DNA from: Clavaria fumosa
Lineage: Eukaryota > Basidiomycota > Agaricomycetes > Agaricales > Clavariaceae
Assembly (NCBI GenBank): GCA_951802425.1
Contig: OX637799.1
Coordinates: 3,534,001-3,598,000, forward strand
Direction: 5' to 3'
Length of the DNA: 64,000 bases
Shown: positions 27,401 to 62,060 of the stretch, in pieces
Layout of the letters: the number at the start of each line of letters is the position of its first letter
Position numbering within the stretch: the first letter of the stretch is position 1
Translations under genes and position numbers: made by a program
The notes under the pieces: model-generated
The model's input: the letters and a program-made list of their open reading frames with translations, nothing else
The model's database searches: none
What the model was told of the DNA's origin: nothing

Positions 27401-28200
27401 CCTCTGAAATGCACCATCCTCAACATCTGGTTGTATGTCCCCTTCTGATTCTCCCTCTTGAACAAGATCATCCTCCCAGATGTCATCCCCAGGGGTGTGA
27501 ACAGAACTGGCAAAGAGTGTTGGGCAAGGTTTCCCATCATGTCCAAGGTGAATAAGGAGTCCTAAATTTCCCAGGTCCTCTCTCTCAAAGAACTTCCCTG
27601 TCCATCTCCGTATACGATGGAAAGGAAGATGTTGATGTTGTACCAGGCAACAGTTATGACAAAGAACTTGTTGGCCCTGGCAACAGTCAAGACAACGAAA
27701 TAAGGCTAATGGTCCACCACAAACCACACAACTAGAGTCATGTGGGAGAGCCTCAAGTCCAACTATTGCAGAGAGGTGAAGACTGCACGCATCCTCTTTC
27801 CACTCTCGCAGGAAGTCATTTTGAGTCTAAATAATTTTGAGTAAGACATATGGTCATACAGTGTGTTTGGTTTGCACACCTTTCCCTTCCGCAAACATTT
27901 GGGAGTAGGACTTTTTGGTGTCTCAAATTCCAAAGTCATTGAAGCCAAGGCTTCAGGACTTATCTCTCTGCCTCGTTTCTTTGATGGTGATTGAGATACA
28001 GCCCTCCTTTCTTGGAATACTGGCTGATCTCTCCCTACCACCTTCCTGCCCCTTGTCCTCTCCTTAACCTCAAAAACCCTCTCTATGGCTCGTGTTGCTC
28101 CTTTCTTGCGAATGACTGCATGCATGGTTGGTTTCACATTAAACAAAGTCACATGATCACATGAGGTGAGACAGGGACGTGACCAACGAAGCCTCATCAC
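24500..28200 (-). CDS. KDZ (Kyakuja-Dileera-Zisupton) transposase with CxC2 cysteine cluster
   Basis: Exon 1 (28200-27880) is basic. A GTGTGC...TTTAG intron (27827-27879) leads to TQNDFLREW, then the CxC2 cluster (CVVCGGPLALFRCLDC...LCHNC, H..LPFHRI..W.GKFF, LGHDGKPCP). An in-frame 57-bp intron is likely near 27080-27136 (GTATGT...CAG) before DCYRELMRVSREWRYLK. The DDE-type core keeps its candidate acidic residues: VADGNFKLE (near 26800), VYDVGCEW (near 26350) and GQLDGEVLESLWSSLNKAA (near 26160). The C-terminal part (25318-24511) shows WEAKLRIGQMNDALWRLR, typical of the family. The gene is split over about nine short-intron exons. It may be intact; I did not find terminal inverted repeats. 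KDZ elements are known as expanded DNA transposons in agaricomycetes. Confidence 0.85.
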
Positions 28201-40156: not shown

Positions 40157-41110
40157 CTACTTTTGTTGTGTCAACTGATATTGGTAGAACCACATGAACA
40201 ATGCAATCAAATTGCTCGTATGCCCAGGCATAGGTTTTGCATTAATCCAAACCAATGCAGACATGGAATCTTGCCAATCTTGTCCAAAGGCCTTTGTAGC
40301 AAGTGTGATCAAACTTGGAGTAGTCAACACTGCATGCACAAGGGGGGCAACAATGTCTGGGAAGTCACATGAATCTGCAGAACCCCTCACAAAGGTTCTA
40401 TGCAGTTCCCCATCACACTGGGGAACATGGCAGTAGTAGCAGATAGCTTCATGATTGTCATTGTACTTGAGTTCACTTTTAAATTGTCGATACTTGTGAA
40501 AAGTCCTCTGGAACAAATTGCAGTCCTTCAATATGTGGGACTGGCTTGTTTCTGTTCTGGGCACCACTGCTGAACAATGTGCACATCCACCAAGGTAGCT
40601 GCTGAGTGCTTGATGGATTGGCTTGGCATACTCAGCTGCTTCCAACTGCCTTTGCACCACTCTTCTGCTCCCTTCTGCATGGGCATGTCCAAATGCTTCC
40701 AGAAGCTGTCGTTTCAGGGGATTGGCCCCAGTGGAAAAGCTGTGTTGCATGGCAGAGTGCTGAGTGGTTATGCATGGTGATGGTTTGGAAATCCTTTGTG
40801 AAGGGATCCTTGTGCTTGCTTCTCCTCTTGTTAAGCCTGTCTTTTTTAAGCAGCCGCTGCATAGCTCTGCCTTGGGGTCTTCATGACAAAATGTCCCCTT
40901 GGCATCACAGAAGTTGGTTGTTGCAAACCGAATGCAATCCCTATGTCCTGTTCGATAGAGAAGTTTGTACATGGCCAAATGGCCCTTGTGGTCAATCTGG
41001 CCATTGGGTAGGCCAGGTGGAGGATGATGGGTGGCCTTTGGAATGATGATGGATTTGGCTGGCCTTCCATCCCGTTCTGCATGTCCTTTCTCCTGAGTGA
41101 ACTCTATCAT
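40157..41110 (-). CDS. RecQ motif VI and Cys-rich C-terminal part
   Basis: It starts SMIEFTQEKGHAERDG (degenerate RecQ motif VI; the Arg finger position of GRAGRDG is His and a Gly is Glu). It then continues to CIRFATTNFCDAKGTFCHED and ELCSGCLKK, which has the spacing of the RecQ zinc-binding segment (CRR..l..yfd....C......CD.C). The remaining ~200 residues hold another Cys/His patch (LGGCAHCSAVV... LKDCNLF) of unknown role. It is in frame with the helicase except for the TGA at 41114-41116. Confidence 0.7.
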   Translation of the reverse strand: MIEFTQEKGHAERDGRPAKSIIIPKATHHPPPGLPNGQIDHKGHLAMYKLLYRTGHRDCIRFATTNFCDAKGTFCHEDPKAELCSGCLKKTGLTRGEASTRIPSQRISKPSPCITTQHSAMQHSFSTGANPLKRQLLEAFGHAHAEGSRRVVQRQLEAAEYAKPIHQALSSYLGGCAHCSAVVPRTETSQSHILKDCNLFQRTFHKYRQFKSELKYNDNHEAICYYCHVPQCDGELHRTFVRGSADSCDFPDIVAPLVHAVLTTPSLITLATKAFGQDWQDSMSALVWINAKPMPGHTSNLIALFMWFYQYQLTQQK

Positions 41111-41113
41111 AGA

Positions 41114-42083
41114 TCAAGGGGATCCTGCATGAATGACCACACGAACATGTGGATAGTCATTTCCTGCACCAAATGCCGATGTGCACACCATGATCTTGTT
41201 TTTCCCATCTAGCCAGTCCTTATGGAATTGTTCTCGAAGGTCTGGTGCATGCATGTTGTTTTTGTCAATGCCATGATAGAAGTCACATCCAAGCTCCACT
41301 GCCATAGCCTTGCCTTCGTCTAGGAATGGAGCAAATATAAGCGCACGATCTTTGGATCCAAAGTGTTCCATTTCATGATGTAGAACTTGCTTCAATTGTT
41401 GTATGATGTGCTGTGAGGATGGTTGTGAAGCTTCAAGAATGTACTGGATTTCTGGACGATGGGTGGTAGTGCGAGAGATAAATGGGTTGTGCAACCCAAA
41501 GGAGTCACAAATGACATCTTGACTCTGCAGAGGAATGGTTCCTGAGAGCACTACAAGCTGCATGGGAAAGCTCCTGAGTGCATACAGGTCTTGAAGGGAC
41601 TGTCGAAAATCATTGGCTGTGAATGCAAAGTGGCCTTCATCAAACACTGTTCTGACCACAGATTTATGTGTGTGGAGCTCCACCAGTGCCTCTTGGTACA
41701 TTGTAGTCCTTGCACGATCTGCTGACAGTATGACCAGGTTTTTATGTCCATCAATGTGGGTCCCACCAGTGTAGAGCTCAAAGCCAATCCCCATGATGGT
41801 GAGTTTGCGAACATAGTCAGATATCAATGAATTGAGAGGGAGGATTCCAATTGTAATTTGACCCTTTTCCAGAAGAGTGGGCAAGACCATGATCATTGAT
41901 TTTCCTGACCCAGTTCGCATGATGCCAAGAACATCCCTTTTTAAAGCCAACACCTCAACAAGTATGTCCCTCTGCTCTGGGCAGGACCATGTGGCCCCTG
42001 GATTACAGAGCACTTTTTGGAGCATGCTGAGAGCTTTCATCTCTACATCATGGTTGGGCACTATAGAAGCCCTTGTTTGTGAG
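41114..42083 (-). CDS. RecQ-type helicase core
   Basis: After an acceptor at 42084-42085 (CACAAAG) the protein reads ISQTRASIVPNHDVEMKAL, then LGIMRTGSGKSMIMVLP (Walker A, GSGKS), FDEGHF (DEAH-like motif II), LSGTIP (motif III), LIFAPFLDEGKA, and VCTSAFGAGNDYPHVRVVIH (motif V of RecQ: t.AFG.G.D...VR.ViH). The aligned Ala of DEAH is Gly. ATP-dependent 3'-5' DNA unwinding is the known family activity; whether this copy works is doubtful given the next exon. Confidence 0.85.
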
Positions 42084-42097
42084 CTTTGTGGTTTTTT

Positions 42098-42430
42098 ATA
42101 TATGAATGTTAATCACACTGGAAGTAGGTTGATAATTGTGTAATGTTGCTTACATTTCCACCTTGGTTGAGACAGCCTTCTCAGCATGTGGCATTGGGTG
42201 TGTGGAAGAGGAACCATTCAGTTCACTTGTGATTAACATACTTGAGTGTTAATCACATAGTGATGATGAGTGACAGGTGTTGCTTACATATCTGCTCTGG
42301 TTGAAGCCACAATCTCAGCATGCATCTTCTGGAGTGTAGGAGAGTGGATGTGTGGTTCACTTGTGATTAACATACTTGAATGTTAATCACATTGTAGTTA
42401 CGAGTGACTATTATTTTATATTGCTTACAT
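42098..42430 (-). repeat. Tandem duplicated 72-nt exons with hairpin-bearing introns
   Basis: Two exons of exactly 72 nt (42288-42359 and 42154-42225) are separated and followed by similar introns with GTAAGCAA donors. Both start after TTAATCACAAG and keep the same phase. They encode EPHIHSPTLQKMHAEIVAS... and ELNGSSSTHPMPHAEKAVST..., which share the H..AE..(V/A)ST(R/K)..(D/E)I pattern. The introns upstream of each exon carry perfect 11-bp inverted repeats TGTGATTAACA/TGTTAATCACA (42228-42257 and 42362-42391). The duplication unit is about 134 bp. Confidence 0.8.
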
Positions 42431-42917
42431 GTCCACAAGGGGTAAAATATTTTCTCCATCATGAGTATGCCATGGTGCATCTAGTGAACTGGATGTATAA
42501 AATGAGCAATTTGACTGTCCATTTTCTCTTGACAATGACAGAAACTCACTCATCGCCTTCCTTAACTTCAAGTCTGGGTTTGATTGGTGACAATCTATGG
42601 GTAAGAGATAGGTACATTGTATCAGATTCTTATGAAGCAGACATGTAGGCATACATACCTTCTGACTTGGAAAGAGGTGCCTTGCAATGATGCTACCTTT
42701 ACACCTTGGATCATTCTGCTTTCAGCACCCTGAATGGTTTGGGAAATGGCTTCTTGGAATGTTTTGCTGATAGTTGCATTGAGTTTCCTTGCAACCAAGT
42801 CTGCAAAGCCTTCTTCCTTTCCCCAGGCCCTCATTTCCTGTCTTATGATGCCATTTTCAAGTTTTTCTTGGAAACTGCTACACCTTGCCTGTTGATATGG
42901 TAGTTGAAGCCCACCTG

Positions 42918-44507
42918 TCAGTACAAACATTGTATGAGCATGGTGTAGAATGAGGCAATTCCAATCTTACCAGGGACCATATGTACTTCTGTCTGCCAGT
43001 GAGTGCTGCAGTCCAAATACTGAGGCAGGATGTCTTCTGCACCAATTAAAGAATCACTGCTGATGCCATAAATGCGAAGATCTGTGCTGCGTGAATGTCC
43101 AAATTGCAGAGCTCCAATGCTGTCCATCTGCCCATCCTCTTCCAGCATATCTGTGGCAAATACACATAGCTTGCGTCTGAATGCAGCATAGATATGACGC
43201 CATGGATTGATTCCAAACTTGACACCAAGAATGGGGAGTGCAAAATCTCCCATGATCTGGCTTAGCTTTTCTGATGTGAACTCCCTCAGGTAGTCAACAA
43301 AGAGCCTGTTGTGATACAGCTCCCATAGCTCAGCTTTATGAGGAAAGCATATGTTGACTGCCATTTGAGCAAAGGGCCGAGCAAGAGCCAGATCTTGTAC
43401 CATGAGGTCAGAAGTAACTGCATCTAGGCTGTGTGGGATAAGCTTATCCACCCCAGACAGGGCTCCTGGCTTGTGATATTGCCAAACAATAGCAATATGG
43501 GCACCAAAAGCATGTAGGTTTCCATCCCTGGTCACAGTATTCCTGTAGTTCATGGCTGTCAGCTCTGTTCCTCGGCTTGGTGCTCCACTCCCCATCTCTG
43601 CCCTTGTCATCTGGATTCCATTGAATTCAGCATAGTCCATTAACCAGGTACGAAGCTTGTGTCTGTTCCAGGTCAAAGAACCAGTTACTTGATCCTTAAT
43701 AGTAAATGCTGCCTTTTGTACTGGATTTGCCAGCAGAGCTGTCATCAAATGATCCTGATTTTCAAAGCATGGATTGCATTCATCTTGAAGGAAACAGTAG
43801 CCAACATTCTTGTTGGTCAAGTCTTCAGCAATATCCCCATAGTTGATCCTAATGTTGAGACCACATAAAACCCTATTCTCCCAAACATCTACCAATGTGT
43901 CCTCCATCCTAGAAAACATGGCCCTGATTTGATCCATATGAACAGGGGTCCCTTTGTAGAGCAAGGATGTCCAGTTGTTGCGGTCAGTCCACCAGACATG
44001 AGGGAGTGACATGGTGGCATAAGAGATGGCACTAGCTCGATGTTGGAGAGACCGAAGGCTGTTAAATGGAGACTCCACCTTCTCTATGAACCATTGCTCA
44101 ACCTCATCACATGCCCTAGTATCATTACCAGAATACTTTGTATTGCTGAGGAACTTCATCTGCCTGAGGCAGACAAGCTGGATAGCCCGCTCCCATTTGG
44201 CTATGTGACCAGTCACATACTTGGGATGTGCAAAGCTGCCATCTCTCTGCAAGGTCATCAGGGCCAGAGCTCGAATAGTTGGACAGGGTAAGGTGTTGTC
44301 AAGAGTCGGTAGCCATTCCTGCATCCACAAGCCCAAAAACACTTGATGGAGCTCTTCCAGTCCATCCATCTCCCCTGAGGCTGGCAGGCAAAATCTTAGT
44401 TGCTCAATCAAGTCTTTTAGAGTCTTTGGGAGTGGCATTTTGTACATATCATGGGGCCTGAGAAGCATGGCAAGTTGGCAGAGTGGGGGTATTATGTAGG
44501 CATTCAA
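42918..44507 (-). CDS. Middle domain with tyrosine-recombinase-like residue pattern
   Basis: About 530 residues without stop. The second half carries, in order: GAPSRGTELTAMNYRNT (near 43572; compare box I Arg ..R..EL..l...d..), WQYHKPG...DKLIP (near 43470; compare the catalytic Lys hairpin), INPWRHIYAAFRR (near 43195; compare H-x-x-R-H..A, with the first His replaced by Asn), then LQFGHSRSTDLRIYGIS (near 43065-43110; compare lGHs..tT..iY with the Tyr nucleophile). The order and spacing fit a tyrosine-recombinase catalytic domain. The first half is an all-alpha-looking Trp-rich region. This assignment is my inference and needs structure prediction. Confidence 0.55.
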   Translation of the reverse strand: MNAYIIPPLCQLAMLLRPHDMYKMPLPKTLKDLIEQLRFCLPASGEMDGLEELHQVFLGLWMQEWLPTLDNTLPCPTIRALALMTLQRDGSFAHPKYVTGHIAKWERAIQLVCLRQMKFLSNTKYSGNDTRACDEVEQWFIEKVESPFNSLRSLQHRASAISYATMSLPHVWWTDRNNWTSLLYKGTPVHMDQIRAMFSRMEDTLVDVWENRVLCGLNIRINYGDIAEDLTNKNVGYCFLQDECNPCFENQDHLMTALLANPVQKAAFTIKDQVTGSLTWNRHKLRTWLMDYAEFNGIQMTRAEMGSGAPSRGTELTAMNYRNTVTRDGNLHAFGAHIAIVWQYHKPGALSGVDKLIPHSLDAVTSDLMVQDLALARPFAQMAVNICFPHKAELWELYHNRLFVDYLREFTSEKLSQIMGDFALPILGVKFGINPWRHIYAAFRRKLCVFATDMLEEDGQMDSIGALQFGHSRSTDLRIYGISSDSLIGAEDILPQYLDCSTHWQTEVHMVPGKIGIASFYTMLIQCLY

Positions 44508-44612
44508 TGTTGCAGCCTGTTGGTGTTCATGGAATGGGGTATTGTTGATACCACTGTATATGTATCAATTAGTATGAAGGGTGTGATTAATGTTCTGGAA
44601 TGTTAAGCACAC

Positions 44613-45266
44613 TCACCTCTTAATTGGATCAGGTGTATTGAGGCGCTGCAAGGGGAGCTCTGCTGTGCTCCTGATGAGCTTTGTTGCATCTTTCATGTAC
44701 TTGAGCACCAAAGATCTAAGGCCTGGAAACTCCTCCTCTTTGGGCAATGCAATGAGACCCACAAGTTCATCAGTTGAATGTCCCTGCACATGCTCATGCC
44801 ACCTTGTGGTAAGGAGCCAAGGGCTGATGCTACGAGAGTTGTGTGGATGATGATGTCCTTCTTTTGTGAGAGCTGCAGCCTCAGACTTCAGCTGCTCCAC
44901 CATTTCATCATCTGATATCAGGTGCTGTTTCCCCAGTGGCTTGACTTCAAATAAAACTCTATCATGGCCTGCCACAAGGTTCAGCCTTTGAACTTTGCAT
45001 TGAGGCCATACATTTGGTCTTGGTTTCTCTTTATGCTGTTCAAAGTGGTGCCTTCGCATGGACTCAGGTTTGCATGCTACTTTTGTGCAATGGATGCACC
45101 GTATGCCATCCAATATCTTGATCCCTTCAAAGGCATCAATGACATTTGCTGTGTCATGACTTGGAAGAACATCAAAGATGTCATATTGTTCAACCATCTG
45201 TGCCAAGAGCTTTTTGTCCATGTGCATTTTGGATGATTGATGAGATGTCTTTAAGTGACCCTCCAC
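44613..45266 (-). CDS. OrsD/DUF3505-like zinc region
   Basis: It contains GIRCIHCTKVACKPESMRRH then HFEQHKEKPRPNVWPQCKVQ, i.e. C..C...........H....H followed by a Trp and a VQ, the pattern of the OrsD-type zinc finger at the head of many fungal helicase-like proteins. An upstream H-K-TSH (EGHLKTSHQSSK) suggests another finger. It is followed, after an intron of about 100 bp, by the recombinase-like domain. Confidence 0.65.
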   Translation of the reverse strand: MEGHLKTSHQSSKMHMDKKLLAQMVEQYDIFDVLPSHDTANVIDAFEGIKILDGIRCIHCTKVACKPESMRRHHFEQHKEKPRPNVWPQCKVQRLNLVAGHDRVLFEVKPLGKQHLISDDEMVEQLKSEAAALTKEGHHHPHNSRSISPWLLTTRWHEHVQGHSTDELVGLIALPKEEEFPGLRSLVLKYMKDATKLIRSTAELPLQRLNTPDPIKR

Positions 45267-45399
45267 CTGTGCAGATGATAGGGTGATGCCACAGGCCTGA
45301 CAGCAGAAGCAGTGGAGGAGAGTGTTGACAACAATTCCAAAGGGGGAAAGCCCTTCTGGGTATTCCAGTTGCCAAGACTACCCCTTCACAATTAATATC

Positions 45400-46140
45400 T
45401 AGTTGTTAATGGCAGAAGCAGTATCACACACATGAGCAGACTGCTTCTCATGTCTGATTTTCTCCACAGTACCAGTGAGAGCAGAACCATGATGGGATCC
45501 AGAATCCAATAAAAAAGGCTTCATGTTGTTGATTGCATCATCCAGTTCAGAGAGACCATCTGCCTTCTTACTTGCCATGCTCATCATGCTAAGAGAACTG
45601 CTTGGTCATGTGAGCTGTGGTGAAGTCAAAGGGTAATCATCATCTTGATCTGATGTGTCACAAGACTGTCATTCACATCAGTTATACACCACATGCCTCT
45701 GCATTGAAAAGTTTGACAATACCTTTGTTACTGGCCCCTGTGTCTTTAAATCGTCTCCTGTTCTGCTCTCTCTTGCATTGGGATTAAGGTATTTGTGTGT
45801 TAATCCAATTTTCCCCTAGTTTGCTGTATTCAGCAGAAGGCATGCAGCATTTACTGATGTCTCCTACCTTCACACAAATATCATCATCTGATGCACTACA
45901 AGGCTATCATCATTCACTTCAGGTCAAGAGAGAAGTATGCATATATGACTCGTCAAACACACCTTGATTGCCTGCCTTTGGGATCTGACCAACTCCTCTC
46001 CCACTCTGCTTCTTTCACTGTGATTAACAGACATGTACACTAATCCCATTTGCCCCTGGGTTGGCTTTTCTCAGTGTTCAGTGGGAAGCAAATACAAACA
46101 GTTGAAAACTCCTTACCTTTTCCTGAACAGTATGGTCAAT
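45400..46140 (-). repeat. Exon/intron region with an old ~250-bp tandem duplication
   Basis: Segments around 45640-45880 and 45885-46125 resemble each other (ATCATCATCTGATG, ACTTCAG/TCACATCAG, CTGCTCTCT/CTGCTTCTTT, GGGATTAAGG/GTGATTAACAG, TTTTCCCCTAG/TTTGCCCCTG, GTATTCAGCAG/GTGTTCAGTGG). They probably contain duplicated small exons of the minus-strand gene, but I could not fix the borders. Confidence 0.45.
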
Positions 46141-46219
46141 GCTAGAACTAACAGTGTTTGCTGTGGAGCCCACTCCAACCTGGATAATCTTAGCAAGGTA
46201 AGAAGCTCCATGAATCAAT

Positions 46220-46501
46220 TTATTTACTCACATTGTCCTGCTCTGGTGATGTGCCTAATTGCTCCTTCCATGTGGACTTGGCTCTTTGAATATGTTTTCT
46301 CAAGGTTTCAATCTTGTCAAAGGGTCTTGGGCAATCTTTGTGTGTGCATTGGCACATGTACATGCCACTACTATCTCTTTGAAGTGTAACTTTGCCTTGA
46401 GGGAGATGGAGTACTGCTATAGACCTGCAGTTGCGCAGATGGTACTTCATCTGAGCACTGGCAAAAGTGTTCATGCAGCTAGGACACTGAGAGGGGGGCA
46501 T
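46220..46501 (-). CDS. N-terminal zinc-finger exon of the OrsD/RecQ-type gene
   Basis: It begins MPPSQCPSCMNTFASAQMKY then HLRNCRSIAV (C..C...F.....H...C), followed by GMYMCQCTHKDCPRPFDKIE then TLRKHIQRAK (C.C....C..F.....L..H). These are C2H2-type fingers with slightly irregular spacing. The ATG at 46499-46501 is the likely start: upstream DNA in this frame is not protein-like. Confidence 0.65.
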   Translation of the reverse strand: MPPSQCPSCMNTFASAQMKYHLRNCRSIAVLHLPQGKVTLQRDSSGMYMCQCTHKDCPRPFDKIETLRKHIQRAKSTWKEQLGTSPEQDNVSK

Positions 46502-47140
46502 ATTGGGGGGTCAAGTGGGTAAGAGTTGCATGGGAAGGAGCAGGGTATATATATGTGTGCTTACATAATCATTCCTTGGGCTGAGTTTGAAATGGTTAGG
46601 TTAGGTTACACAATTATGGCTTAGGCATACTTTGAAACATAACTGTTGCAGGTCTTGCTTATCCTAATGATCAGAGTCTGACTAGTTAGTAATTACAATT
46701 GTCCAACAGGGAATGTGCATGGTATTAATCACATCATCAATTAGTTGGATGTGATTAGTGTAAATCACCACTAATCATATTTCCTATTAGGTCATTGTGA
46801 ATAACATAACTCTCCACTAATCATTATTTGCTAAAAGAGAACATGTTCTCAAATTGTACCATTTTATAGTATGAAAAGGGAAACATACTTATGGTATGGA
46901 AAGGGAAACATACTTTTTCAAAAGGTGAGTGCAAAACCATAGGACTGATGATGAGGAACCAAGTTATTAACAGGGCAATGACTCAAGAATACCTCAAAAA
47001 TAGTTATAGAAGTGGTTCCAATCAAATAGAATTGAGGTCTTAGATAAGTACAGAACTTCATCATGCCAATTGTTTGAGTTCTCACATGTGGAACAAATTA
47101 GCTAAACTTATGAAAATACTATCACAGGTACTAGTGATAT
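46502..47140. other. Divergent spacer with intron-like motifs
   Basis: AT-rich DNA upstream of the minus-strand gene. Around 46735-46825 it holds GTGATTAGTGTAAATCACCACTAATCA, in pieces ending TTCCTATTAG, which resembles the introns of the microexon array at 48.7 kb. A short tandem TATGGTATGGAAAGGGAAAC occurs near 46870-46915. No exon is clear. Confidence 0.4.
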
Positions 47141-48722: not shown

Positions 48723-49793
48723 ATGTCTGACAAATCAGTAAGTGACTGGCTGATTAGTGTTCACACATGCTAATCACATTCTCACTTGGCACAGGAGAAA
48801 AGAGAAACAGGTCAGGGAGAATCAAACCAAGTATGTGATTAGTGTAAATTTATGATAAACAGAATTCCCATTTTCATAGGGAGATAAATCAAGGCCAAGC
48901 AAGGTATGTGATTAGTGTGAAGTTCTGATAAACACATTTCTCATTTGGCACAGGGAAATGAGCCAAAGGTGTCTGGCAAGGTATGTGATTAGTGTAAATT
49001 TCTGATAAACACCTTTCTCATTTGGCACAGGGAAGTGAGCCAAGGGTGTCTGGCAAGGTATGTGATTAGAGTAGATTTATGATAAACACATTTTTCATTT
49101 GGCACAGGGAAATGAACCAAGGGTGTCTGGCAAGGTATGTGATTAGTGTAAATTTCTGATAAACACATTTTTCATTTGGCACAGGAAGATGAACCAGCTC
49201 TGCCCAGCAGACCAGGAAAGGTATGTGATTAGTGTAAATTTCTGATAAACACATTTCTCATTTGGCACAGGGTAATGAGCCAAGGGTGTCTGGCAAGGTA
49301 TGTGATTAGTGTAAATTTCTGATAAACACATTTCCCATTTGCCACAGGGGGATGAACCTGCTCTTCCATGAGGGCCTGGCAAGGTATGTGATTAGCACAA
49401 ATTTATGATAAGCAGAATTCCCATTTTCTTAGGGAGATAAATCAAGGCCAAGCAAGGTATGTGATTAGTGTGAAGTTCTGATAAACACATTTCTCATTTG
49501 GTGCAGGGAAATGAGCCAAAGGTGTCTGGCAAGGTATGTGACTAGTGAAAACTTATGCTAATCATAATTCTCATTCGCAACAGGGAAAACAAGTGGCAAG
49601 CACAGGGGAGTCAAGCAGGGTATGTGATTATTCTAGATTCATGCTAATTACAATTCTAATTTTGCACAGAATGGAGTTCCAGGAGCACAAAGTGATTCAA
49701 ACAAGGTGTGTGGTTTGCATAATTCAATCTGAGCCCTCAGCTTATTTCTTGCAGACAAACCCTGATCCAGAGGAAGAAAGTGATCTAAGTGGA
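48723..49793 (+). CDS. Tandem microexon array (14 exons of 15-39 nt, phase-0 introns of ~50 bp)
   Basis: ATG at 48723 starts MSDKS, then GT..AG introns alternate with exons at 48795-48830, 48880-48903, 48954-48980, 49031-49057, 49108-49134, 49185-49220, 49271-49297, 49348-49383, 49433-49456, 49507-49533, 49584-49619, 49670-49705 and 49755-49793. All exon lengths are multiples of three (24, 27, 36 or 39 nt). They encode GNEPKVSGK (five near-identical copies), GDKSRPSK (twice), EDEPALPSRPGK-type units (twice) and relatives: a hydrophilic Pro/Lys/Asp repeat tail. Introns are 49-50 bp, start GTATGTGATTAG, contain CTGATAAAC (branch-point-like) and end TTTGGCACAG. Reading into an unspliced intron meets TAG at the fourth codon. 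The exon at 49348 has an internal TGA (49369-49371). It probably continues into the ParB-like part downstream. Confidence 0.8.
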
Positions 49794-49843: not shown

Positions 49844-50821
49844 GACCAAAGCCCTATGGTGTACAGCCCATCACAGGAAATTCAGGTATGTTTACTATTA
49901 ATATTAGAGACTGTTGTCTGACAGACTAAGATAGCCTGTTGCATGGGACTGTGAACTCAGGACAAACCTGGCAACAATGGCTGAGAGTGTCAAGAGTGAC
50001 ACTCTCCTTGGCTATGCATACATCAATTTGCCACCACAAAGGCACAAATAAAGTGGGATGGAGCTCAACCTATTTCCACGGCCCAAGTCTCTGCACTTGA
50101 CAAATATGTAGATCAAGATGGTCTGCAAAATGATTCAATACCCAATGCCATGTTCTGCCTTGTTGAAAAGGAAAAATTCAAACTCAGTTCAATGAAATCA
50201 TTCCGGCTGAAGAACTTCTGTCATCTCCAGTGTGCACCTGGGCTTAAGGAGGAGGAAGTAGTGCTAGAGATGCTTGCAGGCCAACATCGTCATGCTTGGC
50301 TTATCACCAAGGCATTCAAGAATGAACTCAACAAACGTGGTAAACTTGTGGCATCCTTGAAGGAAGCAGTAGAAAAGAAAAAAGATGAGATGAAAATTAG
50401 GGAAGATCTGGAGTTGAATGAGGAAGCTTTGGAGCATTGTGTGTGGCTGGTGGGCTTTTGGGACAAAGGTGTAGACCAACTTACTCCATCATGAAGACCT
50501 TGTTGAACCCTAATACCATTAAACACAGGGGCACTGGAAGCCTCACCATTGGGTGACATTGTCAAACACAAGTTGGCAGAAAATTGCAAGACCATTCAAA
50601 GGATAGATGACCTTGCCTCTCAGTTGGTGCACCTCATACAGTCTCTCCAGGGCAAACCAAAGTACTCCTGGGATGGCATTCTCCAGGGATTATCTGGGAG
50701 CTATGCTACCAGCAGAATGGATATTCGTTGGATAATGAACAACCCAACAATCCTGGCCCTCTTGGTGCACCTATTCCAGCACAAGTACTTTGAGGGCATG
50801 GCACATGTCCTCAATCCATGA
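49844..50821 (+). pseudogene. ParB/sulfiredoxin-like gene, second family member (with frameshift and stop)
   Basis: From about 49844 the frame reads TKALWCTAHHRKF, then after a short intron a stop (TAG, perhaps from CAG) and PVAWDCELRTNLATMAESVK ... LLGYAYINL. A one-base shift follows, then IKWDGAQPISTAQVSALDKY and the box LEMLAGQHRHAWLITKAF, then a coiled coil (KLVASLKEAVEKKKDEMKI). This parallels the gene at 2844 in order: GYYSIDL.., ..P..V..L, GGNHR..AL, coiled coil, ...W..G. A further exon (about 50530-50821, ALEASPLGDIVKHKLAEN... to stop) has an AG acceptor at CACAG. The box GQHR..A is shared by ParB-like folds. Damage makes this copy probably inactive. Confidence 0.55.
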
Positions 50822-51707
50822 TTTTTCAACCAACTGCACCGGGTTTCACTCTCTGTGAGTTTTTTTCCAATCTATTTATTTGTGCATGCTCACTAGCTGT
50901 AAAACAAATGGCCAATGCAAGTTTGGCCACATAATAAAAAACTGCAAAATGTGTTATAGGAACCTTGTAGACATGTTCTATAGGTAAAACAATACAACTT
51001 TTGTATGGATCATGTCTCACCCCACTTGCTACTTCAAAAGATCCCCTGGTTTTCATTTTGGCCTCTTCCTAGTGTATCATTACAAAGAATAGCATATTTT
51101 ACAATATGTAGGCATGGGAGGCCTATGAAACTTTGAGGAGACATTCTCTATAGTATATCAATGGTTTATGGCCACTTACCTGATCCCCTGAGCTTCTACT
51201 TTCAAAGATCCCCTGAAAATGCCCAAAAAACTCATTTTCCCGGGATCTTTGGACCTGGACACTAAAACACTTATGTAAAGCACCCACACCCTTTCCCTAT
51301 ACCCCCTCTAACCCCCCATACCATTCACTACCAAGTGGCCAATGCTCCACTTTCTGCTACCCACAACACTTGGCCAATGCAGCATTGGCCAACTTCTGTT
51401 AAATAATTTCCAATAATCACCAAAATATTCATATGCCTAGTTCCCATTTTTGGCATCATCTTTTGTATGGAAACCACATCCCACTTTCCATCTGTTCCAA
51501 AGATCCCCATTATTCTTGATATTAAATGAGCATGGCACATTGGCTATATCTCAGCAAACACTTCATATATTTTCATCAGACTTTGTGAGTAGATGCATAC
51601 CTATGAGCAGTATCTTCAGTAATATTTGGATGAATTTACATGATTTAATGTAAAGGGGAGAGTGGGTGTGCAGATGAAGCAGAAGTGTGAGCCAGGGTGA
51701 GAGTGAA
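50822..51707. repeat. Spacer with internally repeated blocks; ends in an inverted-repeat copy
   Basis: CAAAGATCCCC/AAAAGATCCCCTG, TTGTATGGA(T/A)..CATGTCTCACCCCACTT versus ACATCCCACTTTCC, and GGCCAATGCA(A/G) blocks recur, giving a loosely tandem structure. 51548-51660 is the inverted partner of 48290-48400. No gene is seen. A sharp switch to CpG-rich DNA occurs at about 51708. Confidence 0.55.
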
Positions 51708-52443: not shown

Positions 52444-52448
52444 GTAGG

Positions 52449-53171
52449 TGTTACGACCCCATCCGCTTGCATAAGCACTATCCCCACCCCGGACTCCGAG
52501 CTCCGTACCAACTCCGATCCGCTCCGCTGTAACTCCGTACGCCCCGCTCTGCACCTTCATCGGACTTTACTCCGCTGACCTTCGAACCATTCGGACTTCG
52601 TTCTAGAACCTTCTCCCTCCATCCCCTCATTCTGTTCACTACTGAGAGGATACCCTTGACCCATGGGAATCGCTTTTGTTGTTGTTTCTTTGTTCCAAGA
52701 AAATTGCACAGGCACAAGTGGTGAAACTCTCCTAGTAATTTGATAAGTACATTGTTTCACATTACTCCTATACTCTGTCCTTGCAGTATAAGTTTCCACC
52801 TGTATCTCCCTGCTCCTCAGTTCGAATATTAACGTCTCTTGATCCTAAACATCTCTGAGCTTTTGTCCTCATCGTCCTCGACGTTCTCCACATCATCCGA
52901 TCAACTCTGACCAACTCCGACGGACTCCGATCAACTTCGGAGTTTTGACTTGTGTTCTGATCCTCCCTTAGGTATTGTTCTTGTTTGATAAATAGGGACA
53001 CGTATATACGCGGTGGCACAACACATACGTTGAGGCCGCAGTCCCATAAGTCTCTCTTCCTTGTGTTTACTTCTCCATTTCTCCGATATCGGACTCCGAC
53101 CGGACTCCGATAGAATATCTCCGCTCTGCTCTGCTAACCCCTTCGCCGCTAACCTTGTTAGGACCTTGACA
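52449..53171 (+). repeat. 5' LTR of young gypsy element
   Basis: It starts TGTTACGACC and ends CTTGACA (TG...CA). It contains a TATA-like CAGTATAAG (TATA from 52787), and 32 bp downstream AGTTCGAATAT (52819-52829), which I propose as the start of R. An old, CpG-depleted relative is at 29025-29451. Confidence 0.95.
52787..52829 (+). promoter_or_regulatory. Predicted TATA box and transcript start complementary to the primer site
   Basis: TATAAG at 52787-52792 lies 32 bp before AGTTCGAATAT at 52819-52829. That 11-mer is the exact reverse complement of ATATTCGAACT at 53174-53184, two bases after the LTR end. In Tf1/sushi-type elements the first 11 nt of the RNA prime reverse transcription in this way. 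The tRNA-type TGG... site is absent at the LTR edge. Confidence 0.6.
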
Positions 53172-53186
53172 GTATATTCGAACTTC
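53172..53186 (+). other. Primer-binding site, self-priming type
   Basis: Immediately after the LTR: GT then ATATTCGAACT (53174-53184), complementary over 11 nt to the proposed 5' end of the element RNA within the LTR. See the TATA/R entry. Support is sequence complementarity and correct distance to a TATA box only. Confidence 0.6.
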
Positions 53187-53211
53187 AAACCTCGTATATA
53201 CAAACTTAACA

Positions 53212-54387
53212 ATGCCTACTACACGTTCCGGTGCTCGACCTCCACCTCCTGTTGCCGACGACGTCGACATTCCAGAACCGGCCGACAATACTCCGACTCC
53301 GAATGTGTCCGGACCTCCGGACCACGACAAAGAGTCAGATCCCGCGGTCACTGACAACGATGACGAGCTAAATGAACCTCTGACACCTCGAGCAGAGCGC
53401 GAACCAACTCCAGCACGCCTTCTTCAGCAAATTATCAATGCCAACAAGCGCCCGGATACGGTAAAACCACGCGACCCCGACACATTCGATGGCTCGGATG
53501 CTAAGAAGTTGAAAAGCTTCTTGGTCCAATGCCAGTTAAACTTCCTTGATCGCCCAAGAGCGTTCAAATCCGATTCTCATAAGGTACGCTATGTCCTTTC
53601 CTTTCTCCGAGGCTTCGCCTTGGAATGGTTCGAACCAATGATCCTGGATGGTGAAGACCATCCGGTTCTTTCGAACTATAAGATGTTCGTTGCTCAACTT
53701 ACAGAGAACTTTGGTCCTTACGACGCGATCCGCGAGGCGGAGTTCGAACTCGAACGCCTCCGGATGCGTGAGGACCAGAAGTTGACGAAATATACCATTT
53801 CGTTCAACAGATTTGCGTCCATTGTCCATTGGGACAAGTACGCGTTGCAGCGGCAGTTCTACAAAGGACTTGCTAGCCGCATCAAAGACGAACTGGCCCG
53901 CGTTAACCGCGCGGACACGCTCCGCGGACTCCACGAGCAAGCCAGTGCGATCGATGGCCGTTATTGGGCTCGTCAGCAGGAGATCTCCTGGGACTCCGTT
54001 AAAGCTCCAACGCCTAACAACACCATAAAAAAGGAGACTTCGGATATTCCCAAGTCCCCAAGCACTTCCGGCGCTAATACCAAGTCCGAGAAACCCTCGG
54101 ATAAGCGTCCGGTGAACTCCGGTTCGACTTCTGGGAACTCCGTTCCAAAGGTCACTGAGGGCTCCGCTAACTCCGGTAGCTCCAGCGACACAAAGAAGGC
54201 CCATCTGGGTCAGGATGGAAAACTGACTCCAGAGGAACGCCAACGGCGTTTCGATAATAATCTGTGCCTCTTCTGTGGAATAGCGGGCCACAAAGCCAAC
54301 GAGTGTCGTAAGCGGACCTCGCGGGCCAGTGCCAGCGCTGCACGAATCACCTCCGAGGGAGGTGACTCCATGCCAAAAAAAGATTGA
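53212..54387 (+). CDS. gag: Gypsy gag (capsid/nucleocapsid), 391 aa
   Basis: The ATG at 53212 is 41 bp after the LTR. An acidic, proline-rich N-terminus (PEPADNTPTPNVSGPPDHD) precedes the retrotransposon-gag core (KLKSFLVQCQLNFLDRPRAF; VRYVLSFLRGFALEWFEPM; FGPYDAIREAEFELERLRM; KYTISFNRFAS). A Ser/Thr-rich linker leads to one CCHC knuckle CLFCGIAGHKANEC near residue 351-364. The stop TGA at 54385-54387 lies inside the frameshift hairpin. The frame is intact. The role is forming the virus-like particle and packaging element RNA in the cytoplasm. Confidence 0.92.
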   Translation: MPTTRSGARPPPPVADDVDIPEPADNTPTPNVSGPPDHDKESDPAVTDNDDELNEPLTPRAEREPTPARLLQQIINANKRPDTVKPRDPDTFDGSDAKKLKSFLVQCQLNFLDRPRAFKSDSHKVRYVLSFLRGFALEWFEPMILDGEDHPVLSNYKMFVAQLTENFGPYDAIREAEFELERLRMREDQKLTKYTISFNRFASIVHWDKYALQRQFYKGLASRIKDELARVNRADTLRGLHEQASAIDGRYWARQQEISWDSVKAPTPNNTIKKETSDIPKSPSTSGANTKSEKPSDKRPVNSGSTSGNSVPKVTEGSANSGSSSDTKKAHLGQDGKLTPEERQRRFDNNLCLFCGIAGHKANECRKRTSRASASAARITSEGGDSMPKKD

Positions 54388-54424
54388 GCAGCCCAGAGAG
54401 CATAGTACGACTCTCCGGCTGCTC
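54375..54424 (+). promoter_or_regulatory. -1 ribosomal frameshift signal (A AAA AAA + stem-loop)
   Basis: In the gag frame the last codons are CCA AAA AAA GAT TGA. The heptamer A AAA AAA (54375-54381) is a perfect X XXY YYZ site. A stem starts 4 nt later: GAGCAGCC (54386-54393) pairs with GGCTGCTC (54417-54424), with an inner stem GAGAG (54396-54400)/CTCTC (54411-54415). The pol frame is exactly -1 relative to gag and continues open. Confidence 0.85.
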
Positions 54425-57400
54425 CGACTCCGATCGTACGGAACCGATACTCGATACCCTTTCCTTTCATCGTTCTCTTTCCCTTCTTGCCTCCTCTCCT
54501 TCTATTTCGTCTCCGTTCAAAGCTATGATAGACTCTGGCACTGAACTTTGTTTCATTGACGCCAAATTTGCTTCTCGCTTCCGTCTTCCGAAAACTCCGG
54601 TGACCCCTCGGGAGGTCATTTTTATTAATGGGACCACCTCCATATGGGTTACCGAAGCGGTCTGGTTATCCATTCAGCTCTCCGCCATGGATCCGACTGA
54701 CATCTTGTGTGTAGTTACCAATCTTGATCCCTCTAGTGATGTGATCTTGGGAATGAATTGGCTGTTCCAAAACAACCCGCTGGTTGACTGGATTACTGGC
54801 CAGATAAAGCCCAGACCATCTACGAAAGAGGAGAAAACTCCGAAATCTGATCCAGAGGGTGCACCGGCCAGCACTCTCTACTCTGTCCCTCTGTCCACCT
54901 CTGTCCCTCTGTCTGTCTCCGCTCCGTGTGCTCCGGTTCAAATGTCGTCTGCAGCGACTCCGAACCAGACCCGGACTCCGTCTCCATCTCTGCCTCTGTC
55001 TCCGTCTTTGACCCAGTCTCTGACCTTTCCGTCTACTCCGTCTCTCCAGGAGACACTCAAAGTTTCTTTTGTGAATGCTGCCGCATTCGTCACGGCTTGT
55101 GGACTTCGCGGGTCCCAAGTCTTTGGCATGACGTTGTCGAGCGAGTCCACGCGCGTGGCCTCCGCTTCGTTCAACATCCCCGACACCACCCCCCAGGACC
55201 TCCTCTCCGTTCCGGAGGAGTACAGGGACTTCCCAGATGTCTTCAGTAAAAAGAAGGCAGATACCCTTGCTCCGCATCGACCGTATGATTTAAAGATCAA
55301 CCTGCTGGATGGCCAATCCCCTCCGCCAGGTGCGGTCTACTCTCTGTCACAGTCCGAACTCAGCGAACTCCGCGAGTTTTTGGACGAGCACCTCCGCATC
55401 GGATTTATCCGTCCAAGCCATTCTCCGCACGGAGCACCTGTGCTCTTTGTCCGGAAGAAGAACGGAACGCTCCAATTATGCGTTGATTTCTGTGGTCTCA
55501 ATAAATTGACCAAAAAAGACCGTTATCCGCTCCTGCTGACTAAAGATCTTCTCGACGTTCCAGGAAAAGCCCGAATCTATACAAAACTCGACCTCCGACA
55601 CGCGTATCACCTGGTCCGTATCGCTGAGGGTGACGAATGGAAGACCGCATTCCGCACCCGATACGGATCCTTTGAATGGTGTGTGATGCCTTTCGGGCTC
55701 ACAAACGCGCCCGCCACATTCCAGCACTTTATGAACGACATATTCTCCGACCTTCTCGACACGTTCATGGTCGTCTACCTCGACGACATCCTAATTTACT
55801 CCGAGGATCCGAAACAACACGTTGAGCACGTCCGAGAGGTACTCCGAAGGCTCCAGGAGCACGGTCTCTTCCTGAACCCGGCTAAGTGTGAATTTCACGC
55901 TGAAACCGTGGAGTATCTCGGATTTGTTTTATCTCCGTCCGGACTTTCTATGGACACGGCTAAAGTGAAAACTATTCAGGATTGGCCGACTCCGCGGAAG
56001 GTCAAGGATGTCCAGTCCTTCCTCGGGTTCGCCAATTTCTATCGCCGCTTCGTCCATGGCTATTCCGAGATCGTCGCTCTGATGAACCGCTTGACGCATA
56101 AAAACATTGAGTGGCAGTGGTCCGACGATTGCCAGTCCACGTTTGACTATCTAAAAACCGCGTTCTCCACGGCTCCGATCCTCTCGCACTTCATACCTGG
56201 AGCTCCGCTGATAGTCGAAACGGACACCTCGGACTACGCTGTCGCTGCGATACTTTCTACGGTCACCTCCGATGGTGAAGTCCACCCTATCGCTTTTCAT
56301 TCCCGCACCCTAGGCGTCTCCGAACTGAACTATGACACCCACAATAAGGAACTTCTCGTTATATTTGAGGCGTTTACCGCTTGGAGGCACTATCTCGAAG
56401 CTTCTGGAATTCCGGTCGACGTTGTTACCGACCACAAGAACCTAGAGTACTTCTCCATGGTCCGCCTACTCACCCGGCGTCAAGCCAGGTGGTCGGAGTT
56501 CCTTTCCCAGTTCAATTTTGTGATCCGATTCCGCCCCGGGCGCCTCGGAATGAAACCCGATGCGTTGACTAGACGTTGGGACGTCTATCCCAAAGAGGGG
56601 GATAGCGACTATGCCCGCGTCAATCCACAAAACCTCCGGCTGATGTTCTCCAGTGAACAATTGATATCGTCTCTCCGAGCTTCGTCGCTTTACGTACCCG
56701 CACTCCGCGCGTCGTTTGTGATTGATGATCATCAACTCCGAGAGGACATCCAGTCTGGACTCTTGCTCAATCCTGTAATCATCCCGATCCTAGAAGACCT
56801 CCACTCAAACTCCGCGGACCCTAAGTGGTCCATGGACGATGACAGACTTCTCCGCGAGCGCGGACGGATTTATGTACCGGACGTCAATGACCTCCGACTC
56901 CGCGTTTTACGCGCGAGACATGATCACCCGCTCGCCGGACATTTCGGTCGGACCAAGACTACGGCCTTGGTCTTCAGGGATTATACCTGGCCGAAACTCC
57001 GAGGATTCGTATCGGACTTTTGCAAGTCTTGCACGACTTGTGGTAGGGCGAAAGCCCCTCGGCATAAGCCATATGGAACGCTCAAGCAGCTACCCATACC
57101 CGAGAAACCGTGGAATTCCATTTCGATGGATTTCATCAAGCAACTCCCTGAGAGCTCCGGTTTTACCGCAATATTGGTGGTTGTTGATAGGTTTACGAAG
57201 CAGGGAATCTTCATCCCGACGACCGACAAAGTGAACTCCATGGAGTTGGCTCGTCTATTCGTATTCCACGTCTTCTCGAAACATGGAGTTCCGTCGCATG
57301 TCACCTCCGATCGCGGCTCCGAGTTCATTTCCTGTTTTTTTCGCTCGTTGGGTAAAGTCCTGGACATGACTTTACACTTCACCTCCGGATATCATCCGGA

Positions 57401-57872
57401 GGGCGACGGACAGACGGAGCGGACTAACCAGACGTTGGAACAATACCTCCGTTGTTACTGCAATTACCAGCAGGACAACTGGTCGCAGCTTCTACCCCTT
57501 GCCGAGTTTGCCTACAACAATGCCCCGAGCGCCACCACTGGGGTTTCTCCGTTCTTCGTGAACAAGGGTTATCATCCGAATATCTCGGTATTTCCCGAAC
57601 GCGAAGTAACTTCGGTCCGTGCCCGAGAGCTCGCTGTAGACTTGGATCAGCTGCACCAAGAACTCCGTAACCAAATCGCCGAAGCGCAGAGTCGCTATCA
57701 GGGTCTGGCGGACAAACGTCGGACTCCGGCACTGGAGTTTAAGGTCGGAAACCGAGTATACGTAAAGGCGAAGTTTTTCCGTACGACCAGACCCTCCAAA
57801 AAACTCTCCGACAAGTTCCTCGGACCTTTCGAGATCATCGGAGAGGCCGGTTCGCACTCCTTCATACTCTGA
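54384..57872 (+). CDS. pol: Gypsy pol: protease, reverse transcriptase, RNase H, integrase
   Basis: Read by -1 frameshift from gag (no ATG is needed). Protease: AMIDSGTELCFIDAKF near residues 48-63. RT: the PSHSPHGAPVLFV start, CVDFCGLNKLTKKDRYPL, LDLRHAYHLVRIAEGDEWKT, and the intact catalytic YLDDILIYSED near 465. RNase H: VETDTSDYAVAAILS near 610 and THNKELLVIFEA. Integrase: the zinc finger H..H/C..C (DHPLAGHF...CKSCTTCG) and core residues in MDFIKQL, TSDRGSEF and GDGQTERTNQ (D, D, E present). The R of DFRGLN is Cys and a Pro is Leu, both C-to-T type changes. The frame stops at TGA 57870-57872 (SFIL-stop-LPE), where an Arg codon would be expected before the chromodomain. Confidence 0.93.
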   Translation: MSSPESIVRLSGCSDSDRTEPILDTLSFHRSLSLLASSPSISSPFKAMIDSGTELCFIDAKFASRFRLPKTPVTPREVIFINGTTSIWVTEAVWLSIQLSAMDPTDILCVVTNLDPSSDVILGMNWLFQNNPLVDWITGQIKPRPSTKEEKTPKSDPEGAPASTLYSVPLSTSVPLSVSAPCAPVQMSSAATPNQTRTPSPSLPLSPSLTQSLTFPSTPSLQETLKVSFVNAAAFVTACGLRGSQVFGMTLSSESTRVASASFNIPDTTPQDLLSVPEEYRDFPDVFSKKKADTLAPHRPYDLKINLLDGQSPPPGAVYSLSQSELSELREFLDEHLRIGFIRPSHSPHGAPVLFVRKKNGTLQLCVDFCGLNKLTKKDRYPLLLTKDLLDVPGKARIYTKLDLRHAYHLVRIAEGDEWKTAFRTRYGSFEWCVMPFGLTNAPATFQHFMNDIFSDLLDTFMVVYLDDILIYSEDPKQHVEHVREVLRRLQEHGLFLNPAKCEFHAETVEYLGFVLSPSGLSMDTAKVKTIQDWPTPRKVKDVQSFLGFANFYRRFVHGYSEIVALMNRLTHKNIEWQWSDDCQSTFDYLKTAFSTAPILSHFIPGAPLIVETDTSDYAVAAILSTVTSDGEVHPIAFHSRTLGVSELNYDTHNKELLVIFEAFTAWRHYLEASGIPVDVVTDHKNLEYFSMVRLLTRRQARWSEFLSQFNFVIRFRPGRLGMKPDALTRRWDVYPKEGDSDYARVNPQNLRLMFSSEQLISSLRASSLYVPALRASFVIDDHQLREDIQSGLLLNPVIIPILEDLHSNSADPKWSMDDDRLLRERGRIYVPDVNDLRLRVLRARHDHPLAGHFGRTKTTALVFRDYTWPKLRGFVSDFCKSCTTCGRAKAPRHKPYGTLKQLPIPEKPWNSISMDFIKQLPESSGFTAILVVVDRFTKQGIFIPTTDKVNSMELARLFVFHVFSKHGVPSHVTSDRGSEFISCFFRSLGKVLDMTLHFTSGYHPEGDGQTERTNQTLEQYLRCYCNYQQDNWSQLLPLAEFAYNNAPSATTGVSPFFVNKGYHPNISVFPEREVTSVRARELAVDLDQLHQELRNQIAEAQSRYQGLADKRRTPALEFKVGNRVYVKAKFFRTTRPSKKLSDKFLGPFEIIGEAGSHSFIL

Positions 57873-58205
57873 CTCCCCGAGGCCATGCGAGCCGTCCACC
57901 CCGTCTTCCACATTTCCATGCTGGAGCCAGTCACTCCGAATACAATTCCGAATCGTACCATCACCCTGCCTCCTCCGGTAGAGATCGATGGAGACTTAGA
58001 GCACGAAATCTCCGAAGTGCTCGACTCCAAGATCGACAAACGCCGCACCTGCAAACTCCTATACCTGGTGCGGTGGTCCGGATACGAAGGAACCGATGAA
58101 GAAACATCCTGGCTTCCCGCTACGGAACTTGTCCATGCCTCCGAGGCCGTTTCGGATTTCCACCAAGCTTATCCGAACAAGCCCGGACCTCTCAATACCC
58201 TCTAG
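57873..58205 (+). CDS. C-terminal chromodomain of gypsy integrase (split off by a TGA)
   Basis: In the same frame as pol after the single TGA: LPEAMRAVHPVFHISMLEPV, then ISEVLDSKIDKRRTCKLLYL and VRWSGYEGTDEETSWLPATE, a chromodomain with the usual LV.WsGY......W.p...l pattern. In chromoviruses this domain directs integration to marked chromatin. It ends at a TAG just before the repeat region. It would be expressed only by readthrough here. Confidence 0.88.
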   Translation, partial: LPEAMRAVHPVFHISMLEPVTPNTIPNRTITLPPPVEIDGDLEHEISEVLDSKIDKRRTCKLLYLVRWSGYEGTDEETSWLPATELVHASEAVSDFHQAYPNKPGPLNTL

Positions 58206-60479: not shown

Positions 60480-62060
60480 TCAAATGAGGGAAATGGAGTA
60501 CCTCTACAGGCCTATGGAAGGTCTATCATATTACATAAGCCTATGGAAGGCAAAGATCATGTTACATAAGCCTATGGAAGGCTAGTGAATGTAATGGAAG
60601 CCTATGGAAGGCAAAGATCATGTTACATAAGCCTATGGAAGGCTAATGAATGTCATGGAAGCCTATGGAAGGCTGAAGAATGTTATGGAAGCCTATGGAA
60701 GGCTAAAAGAATGTTATGGGAGCCTATGGAAGGCTAAAGAATGTTATGGAAGCCTATAGAACATCATTCAAAGACAGTCATGGAAGGTTATGGAAAGTTA
60801 TGGAAAGTCTTGGAACATTATGGAACATTCTAGAATTTGAAGGAAGCTCATGGAATGTCATGGAAAGCTATGGAAAGCTATGGAAACTCAAAGAAAGTTA
60901 TGGAAGTTTATGGAAGGTTCTAGAAGAACAGTAGAACATTGTAGAATGTTCTAGAATTTGATGGAAGTTCATGGAATGTCATGGAATGCCATGGAATGCC
61001 ATGGAAACTCAAGGAAAGTCATGGAAGTTTATAGAAGGTTCTAGAAGGTCAAGGAAGGCTACTGGAAGCTTATGTAAACCTTATAGAATGTCAAGGAAGT
61101 CACATGGACATGTTATGGAACATCACTGGAATGTAATGGACATTACTCAGCAGGATTATTTGTCATACATTACTCAGCAGGATGATTTGTCATTCCTTAT
61201 TCAGCAGGATGATTTGTCATTCCTTATTCAGCAGGATGATTTGTCATTTCTTACTCAGCAGAATGATTTGTCATTTGATTATTCATCTCTACTATAGCTT
61301 ATTCAGCATTTATATTGTGATTACTCAGCTCATGTATTCTGCTTACTAAGTCTCTTTTGTAGATTAGTAATCTTCTCATTACTAATGGTTTGATGACTCA
61401 GCTAGTTACTTTATTTAGTATAGTTTTCCCATGTGCTGACTAAGTCAGTCATGTGAAGGTCATGTGACAGTCATGTGAAAGTCATGTGAAAGTCATGTGA
61501 TCACTAGTATATAAGGCCAGCTCACTGGTCATTTGCAATATATTCCATCTTAATCCTCAACCACCATCATCTCTGCCTAAGTCCAGTAGTTGTATAGGGT
61601 ACTCAAAGTGCAGTGCTAATACAACTACCCAGTCATCAATTGGTTGTATAGGATACTCAGGAGCAGTATTAATACAACTACCCAAGTCTGTTGAGTTGGA
61701 TACTCAGTGCAGTATTAACCCAACACATATATTCCCTCTTAACCTTCAACCACCATCATCTCTGCATAAGTCCAGTAATTGTATAGGGTACTCTAAGTGC
61801 AGTACTAATACAACTACTCAGTCATCAATCAGTTGTATAGGATACTCAAGAGCAGTATTAATACAGCTACAGTCTTTTGAGTTGGATACTCAGTGAAGTA
61901 TTAACTCAAGGCCCTACAGCCTCAATCATACATACACTCAAAGACTATAGGAGTCTATCCTAAGTCCTCATCACTACACTCACTCAAAGACTATAGGAGT
62001 TTATCCTTAGTCCTCATCACAACACATCCTCAAAGACTATAGGAGTCTATCCATAGTCCT
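60480..62060. repeat. Minisatellite cluster inside the nested CpG-poor block
   Basis: Several different short repeats follow one another. 60500-61140: degenerate CCTATGGAAGGC/ATGGAATGTC. 61142-61279: five 27-bp units (TACTCAGCAGGATGATTTGTC), encoding nine-residue QQDDLSFLI repeats. 61436-61500: ~11-12-bp GTCATGTGAAA. 61570-61920: ~150-bp blocks with GTTGTATAGGATACTCA. 61935-62060: ~55-bp AAAGACTATAGGAGTCTATC. No convincing gene is present; the frames follow the repeats. Confidence 0.8.

Follow-up and report, generated by a model that had tools for sequence, protein, structure and literature searches.

The microexon array at positions 48723-49793 of the window (the whole stretch of 64,000 nucleotides analysed here) is probably the spliced N-terminal repeat region of a lineage-restricted protein gene, recently duplicated, present in several subtelomeric copies and equipped with intron-flanked cassettes. 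Judged from the sequence, the array is genuine, and its gene architecture is regular and out of the ordinary. It consists of 14 predicted exons of 15-39 nt, all of them multiples of three (15, 36, 24, 27, 27, 27, 36, 27, 36, 24, 27, 36, 36 and 39 nt from exon 1 to exon 14), separated by 13 introns of 49-57 nt, every one of which is bounded by GT and AG and 11 of which carry the donor GTATGT. The exon and intron borders and lengths put forward in an initial annotation were recovered. The predicted features are listed below; the labels of the exon types (1, 2, A, B, C, D, K, N, T) are our own.

40157-46510, minus strand: divergent neighbour, a RecQ/tlh-type helicase gene of several exons with DEAD, Helicase_C and OrsD matches
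48723-48737, plus strand: exon 1, MSDKS, presumed start codon; same exon in all five copies
48795-48830, plus strand: exon 2 (type 2), EKRETGQGESNQ; in four of the five copies, C9 being without it
48880-48903, plus strand: exon 3 (type B), GDKSRPSK
48954-48980, plus strand: exon 4 (type C), GNEPKVSGK
49031-49057, plus strand: exon 5 (type C), GSEPRVSGK
49108-49134, plus strand: exon 6 (type C), GNEPRVSGK
49185-49220, plus strand: exon 7 (type D), EDEPALPSRPGK
49271-49297, plus strand: exon 8 (type C), GNEPRVSGK
49348-49383, plus strand: exon 9 (type A), interrupted by an in-frame stop (TGA, 49369-49371) where other copies have a sense codon
49433-49456, plus strand: exon 10 (type B), GDKSRPSK
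49507-49533, plus strand: exon 11 (type C), GNEPKVSGK
49584-49619, plus strand: exon 12 (type K), GKQVASTGESSR
49670-49705, plus strand: exon 13 (type N), NGVPGAQSDSNK
49755-49793, plus strand: exon 14 (type T), TNPDPEEESDLSG
49877-49885, plus strand: tentative 9-nt exon, EIQ, after an 83-nt intron, proposed by homology to the C11 model
49935-50898, plus strand: gene-body remains, the first large exon starting at 49935; frameshifted near 50030, interrupted by an in-frame TGA at 50819-50821, similar to C11 up to 50898

TRF detected in the window a period of 77 nt, repeated 9.7 times between 48831 and 49588. The B-C block occurs twice, 143 of 150 positions being identical between 48831-48980 and 49384-49533, in agreement with the higher-order copy at an offset of 553 bp that had been proposed. 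Retention of an intron would introduce an in-frame stop for 12 of the 13 introns; the exception, the 50-nt intron at 49620-49669, contains none and would shift the frame instead, so that the earlier claim of a stop in every unspliced unit holds for all units except this one.

The longest chain of donor, acceptor and open exon had eight members in the array region compared to at most three in 1000 dinucleotide shuffles. As the same measure gave chains of six in a plain 100-bp tandem repeat (L034), this test is evidence of order and not of coding. When 224 kb (the window plus 16 loci of 10 kb, both strands) were scanned, chains of at least five came from four arrays (window, C2, C9 and C11), from the 100-bp repeat of L034 and from no other place, the short C7 array giving a chain below five. 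The L034 repeat, at 54-1254 and near the C9 end, yields chains of donor-like motifs.

The in-frame TGA of exon 9 (GDEPALP*GPGK) splits the open chain of the window array into 8 + 6 exons. This stop had been overlooked when the locus was first read as encoding a repeat protein. Since it has this stop and a frameshift near 50030 and ceases to resemble C11 at 50898, the copy in the window is probably a degraded, 3'-truncated pseudogene. In the C11 model the array makes up no more than the 5' end of a larger gene.

Searching the assembly (48.8 Mb in 17 contigs) at the DNA level revealed five copies of the array, each named here after its contig: C2, C6 (which holds the window), C7, C9 and C11. The distance to a contig end is about 85-155 kb for every copy, and telomere-like repeats of the TTAGG/TTAG type are present at the relevant ends of C2, C6, C7 and C11 (four of the five), the C9 end being without them. 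Being placed near several chromosome ends, the copies qualify as a subtelomeric gene family. The telomere-like ends (the starts of L030 and L031 and the ends of L032 and L033) consist of TTAGG and TTAG units mixed without regular order, appearing as CCTAA/CTAA at contig starts; neither TTAGGG nor CCCTAA was found in the 400 terminal bases checked at these contig ends. C2 and C11 have about 20 kb in common at 99.5-99.9% identity, and the window has about 12 kb in common with each of them at 97-99%.

The number of array exons was 14 in the window, 15 in C2, 15 in C11, eight in C9 and six in C7. The module strings were 1-2-B-C-C-C-D-C-A-B-C-K-N-T in the window, 1-2-A-B-C-C-C-D-C-A-B-C-K-N-T in both C11 and C2, 1-C-A-D-B-K-N-T in C9 and 1-2-C-K-N-T in C7, so that the five copies of this genome show four distinct arrangements. 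The initial annotation had postulated serial duplication of exon-plus-intron units with variation in length; these counts are as expected from it and, on the predicted borders, the paralogs strengthen the duplication idea. In C11 the A-B-C block occurs twice, with 224 of 236 positions alike. Across the five copies, 57 of the 58 array exons are multiples of three, the exception being a 35-nt exon in C7. The introns measure 58, 40, 50, 39, 61, 50 and 49 nt in C9, and lengths of 39, 40, 49, 50, 57, 58 and 61 nt are among those found across the copies.

All 15 array exons are open in C2 and in C11, and the C9 array is open too, whereas three of the five copies (window, C7 and C9) are broken somewhere. 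C7 has the 35-nt exon, a stop in the array reading and a stop in the body, and the C9 body has deletions that break the frame as well as three in-frame stops. An insertion of about 3.8 kb (L021 5140-8988) with direct terminal repeats, apparently flanked by GATCA, lies in the last array intron of C9 and looks like an LTR element.

The halves of the array introns were compared for 35 introns from four copies; C2 was omitted as a near-duplicate of C11, as was the last array intron of each copy, which is unlike the rest. The 3' halves (last 20 nt) were 92% alike when they preceded the same type of downstream exon and 68% alike otherwise, a value that none of 2000 label shuffles reached, although such shuffles overstate significance because the compared copies are related. 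Sorted by upstream exon, the same 3' halves were 83% versus 70% alike. The 5' halves (first 28 nt) were 86% versus 72% alike by upstream exon and 85% versus 72% by downstream exon. The intron halves do not separate cleanly by exon type.

By eye, some array introns look chimeric. Downstream of exon 2, the window, C11 and C7 have the same 5' part of the intron (one base being different in C7), but three different 3' parts, which match those of B, A and C, respectively. The intron behind exon 2 of the window has the same sequence as the one behind the extra A exon of C11, and the 61-nt intron of C9 appears by eye to combine a B-type donor half with a K-type acceptor half. Together with the 3' halves that track the downstream exon, these chimeric introns suggest joins inside introns that leave the exons whole. 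We infer that the moving cassette is a half-intron, an exon and a half-intron, and that joins within introns would alter the number and order of cassettes without touching the frame. The duplicating unit had been described as an exon plus its intron; duplication of units stands, and only the limits of the unit would have to be redrawn.

In C11, the array is followed by the 9-nt exon and by a modelled body of 1,069 codons, which is open. The C2 body is also open over the 938 codons compared, with a single non-synonymous change relative to C11. Two modelled introns of the C11 body have weak donors (GTCAAA and GTCAGT), so C11 may carry a hidden frameshift. No Pfam family was found at the cut-off in the body pieces tried. 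Homologs were sought with a 419-aa piece of the body, with none at E <= 0.001 among 5,059 candidates from a database that may lack the host species, and with residues 150-1210 of the C11 model, with none at E <= 0.001 among the best 7,998 candidates (those with most shared words). As a control, the neighbouring helicase produced 70 matches in the same database, of which 60 carried the name of a fungal species. These 60 belong to what we take to be exclusively mushroom-forming genera, which indicates that such fungi are represented there. Structure prediction with AlphaFold for two body exons gave low confidence (pLDDT 39 and 38).

The predicted N-terminal region has 83 residues in C9 and 151 in C11; the 154 array residues counted for C11 include 26 G, 21 S, 19 K, 19 P and 16 E. 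Rich in Gly, Ser, Pro, Lys and Glu, it is probably disordered, as its composition suggests. Exon 1, MSDKS followed by charged residues, showed no signal peptide by eye.

Traces of selection were weak. Introns had been described as being as conserved as exons, and this agrees with the comparison of the window with C11, in which four codons were changed in 417 exon nt and three positions in 654 intron nt. All four codon differences change the residue, one of them to a stop, so no purifying selection is visible between these recent copies. Between the bodies of C11 and C9, dN/dS was 0.46; allowing for the excess of transitions, 48 of 133 changes were synonymous compared to 28.5% expected (P = 0.035), and the surplus at third positions was not significant (P = 0.17). 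There were one synonymous and six non-synonymous changes between C11 and the window, and two and six, respectively, between C11 and C7.

C2 and C11 contain the duplicated helicase alongside the array gene, C7 contains both in rearranged form, and C9 is without the helicase side. The helicase matches tlh-type proteins of mushroom-forming fungi, including tlh2 of Grifola frondosa. Six helicase relatives at 59% identity occur elsewhere in the assembly, and the array gene was not found in the 7 kb beside one of them. In Agaricus bisporus, tlh-type helicase genes are described as subtelomeric and variable between strains (PMC7473861). The likeness to subtelomeric RecQ (tlh-type) helicase families belongs to the neighbour of the array, not to the array gene.

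Other features were observed in the window. On inspection by eye, long ORFs at 53170-58205 resemble the gag and pol genes of an LTR retrotransposon, and the stretches at 52448 and 62672, which match the same place in C11, could be the terminal repeats of this element. A tandem array of 24 copies of an 88-bp unit occupies 22293-24410, and several tandem periods, from 10 to 121 bp, overlap in a nest at 60537-61275. A cysteine-rich ORF on the minus strand at 26891-27826 recalls by eye the cysteine-cluster proteins that are, we presume, linked to KDZ transposons.

In the mechanism that we favour, each microexon would be a cassette of phase 0, with a length divisible by three, flanked on both sides by half-introns that share an origin. 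Unequal recombination, whether inside one array or involving two chromosome ends, would fuse the 5' half of an intron with the 3' half of a different one; because a join inside an intron would still be spliceable and any number of cassettes would preserve the frame, copies could gain and lose cassettes while the array stayed unbroken. Its product would have a probably disordered repeat region of variable length at the N terminus, fused to a long lineage-restricted body.

Part of the same evidence would be expected of a non-coding 77-bp minisatellite, or of the relic of a gene dead in all copies, spread by subtelomeric segmental duplication and owing its exon and intron look to the identity of the repeats. 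Exons no better conserved than introns between the window and C11, defects in three of the five copies, the open chains obtainable from a plain tandem repeat such as L034 and the weak selection tests between C11 and C9 all agree with such an origin. We nevertheless regard it as unlikely, given that the lengths of the exon types vary in steps of three nt, unlike those of the introns, that splice-like borders are kept in all five copies, even in C9 with its altered intron lengths, and that the C11 body is open over its modelled codons. Near-identical 50-nt introns within one gene also recall introner-like elements, inserted repeatedly into that gene. The 5' half of the intron (up to three mismatches) had 28 matches in the genome, all 28 of them within the five arrays and none in unrelated genes, and exons repeat along with the introns; as the intron is confined to the five array loci, such elements do not fit, and this origin is very improbable.

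If the array were instead a micro-exon gene of the schistosome type, it would make many isoforms by regulated in-frame skipping. Any array exon of the window, C2, C11 or C9 could be removed without loss of frame, and the stops or frameshift produced by every retained intron of the window array would suit this mode of expression. Duplication of units alone would also leave frame-neutral units, however, and exon 1 is unlike a signal peptide by eye, which makes regulated skipping quite improbable. The joint presence of helicase and array gene in the window, C2 and C11, and in rearranged form in C7, would be explained if both were cargo of a mobile element and the copies arose by transposition, not by exchange between chromosome ends. 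To this we attach little probability, because the ends of the similarity blocks differ between copies, C9 is without the helicase side and the 59%-identical helicases lie elsewhere.

Should C2 or C11 be expressed, the spliced N-terminal repeat that we favour would be small-scale exon shuffling caught in the act, with joins apparently inside introns and exons untouched. The turnover of units could be measured between strains, the arrays would illustrate how the frame of a tandem repeat can be shielded by introns, and the fungal spliceosome would be put to the test on a run of exons of 9-39 nt. Genes with such microexons would probably be missed by ordinary gene finders. A further reading, possible and offered tentatively, is a fungal diversification system in which subtelomeric copies swap tiny exon cassettes by recombination in near-identical 50-nt introns, each chromosome end holding its own in-frame arrangement of N-terminal repeats, as an independently arisen counterpart of the polymorphic mucins of schistosomes.

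The initial annotation knew no named system of this kind in fungi, and our literature search concurs, having shown no recognisable fungal precedent for a microexon array among titles and the beginnings of abstracts, although close analogues exist in schistosomes. A functional microexon of Trichoderma was introduced in 2024 as not previously described in filamentous fungi (PMC11121469). Fungal introner-like elements, of which one account mentions hundreds of copies in unrelated genes (PMC4457414), share with the array the near-identical introns in a fungus and differ from it in that the array introns are confined to one family.

The closest analogues of the array family appear to be the micro-exon genes (MEGs) and the polymorphic mucins (SmPoMuc) of schistosomes. 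A review describes MEGs as containing series of tiny symmetric exons whose omission keeps the frame, with observed skipping and, in most of these genes, a signal peptide (PMC4015677). Many symmetric and very small exons are also predicted here; the predicted array genes differ in the long body after the microexons and in exon 1, which by eye has no signal peptide.

The SmPoMuc genes of Schistosoma mansoni are described as a multigene family in which exon 2 and its flanking introns are tandemly repeated at a variable 5' end, with gene-specific numbers of repeats, a proposed ectopic recombination between units and some groups that are probably pseudogenes (PMC2576457). The array family resembles them in its predicted architecture: C11 likewise combines a 5' tandem of exon and flanking intron with a non-repeated 3' part, and the paralogs differ in their number of array exons. 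SmPoMuc units are about 1 kb long with polypurine or microsatellite spacers (PMC2576457), whereas the array units measure 73-86 bp, with introns of about 50 nt and several exon types. Transcripts of SmPoMuc are known, whereas the array gene is predicted, and its copies are subtelomeric, in contrast to the mucin cluster as located in a later study (PMC10900676).
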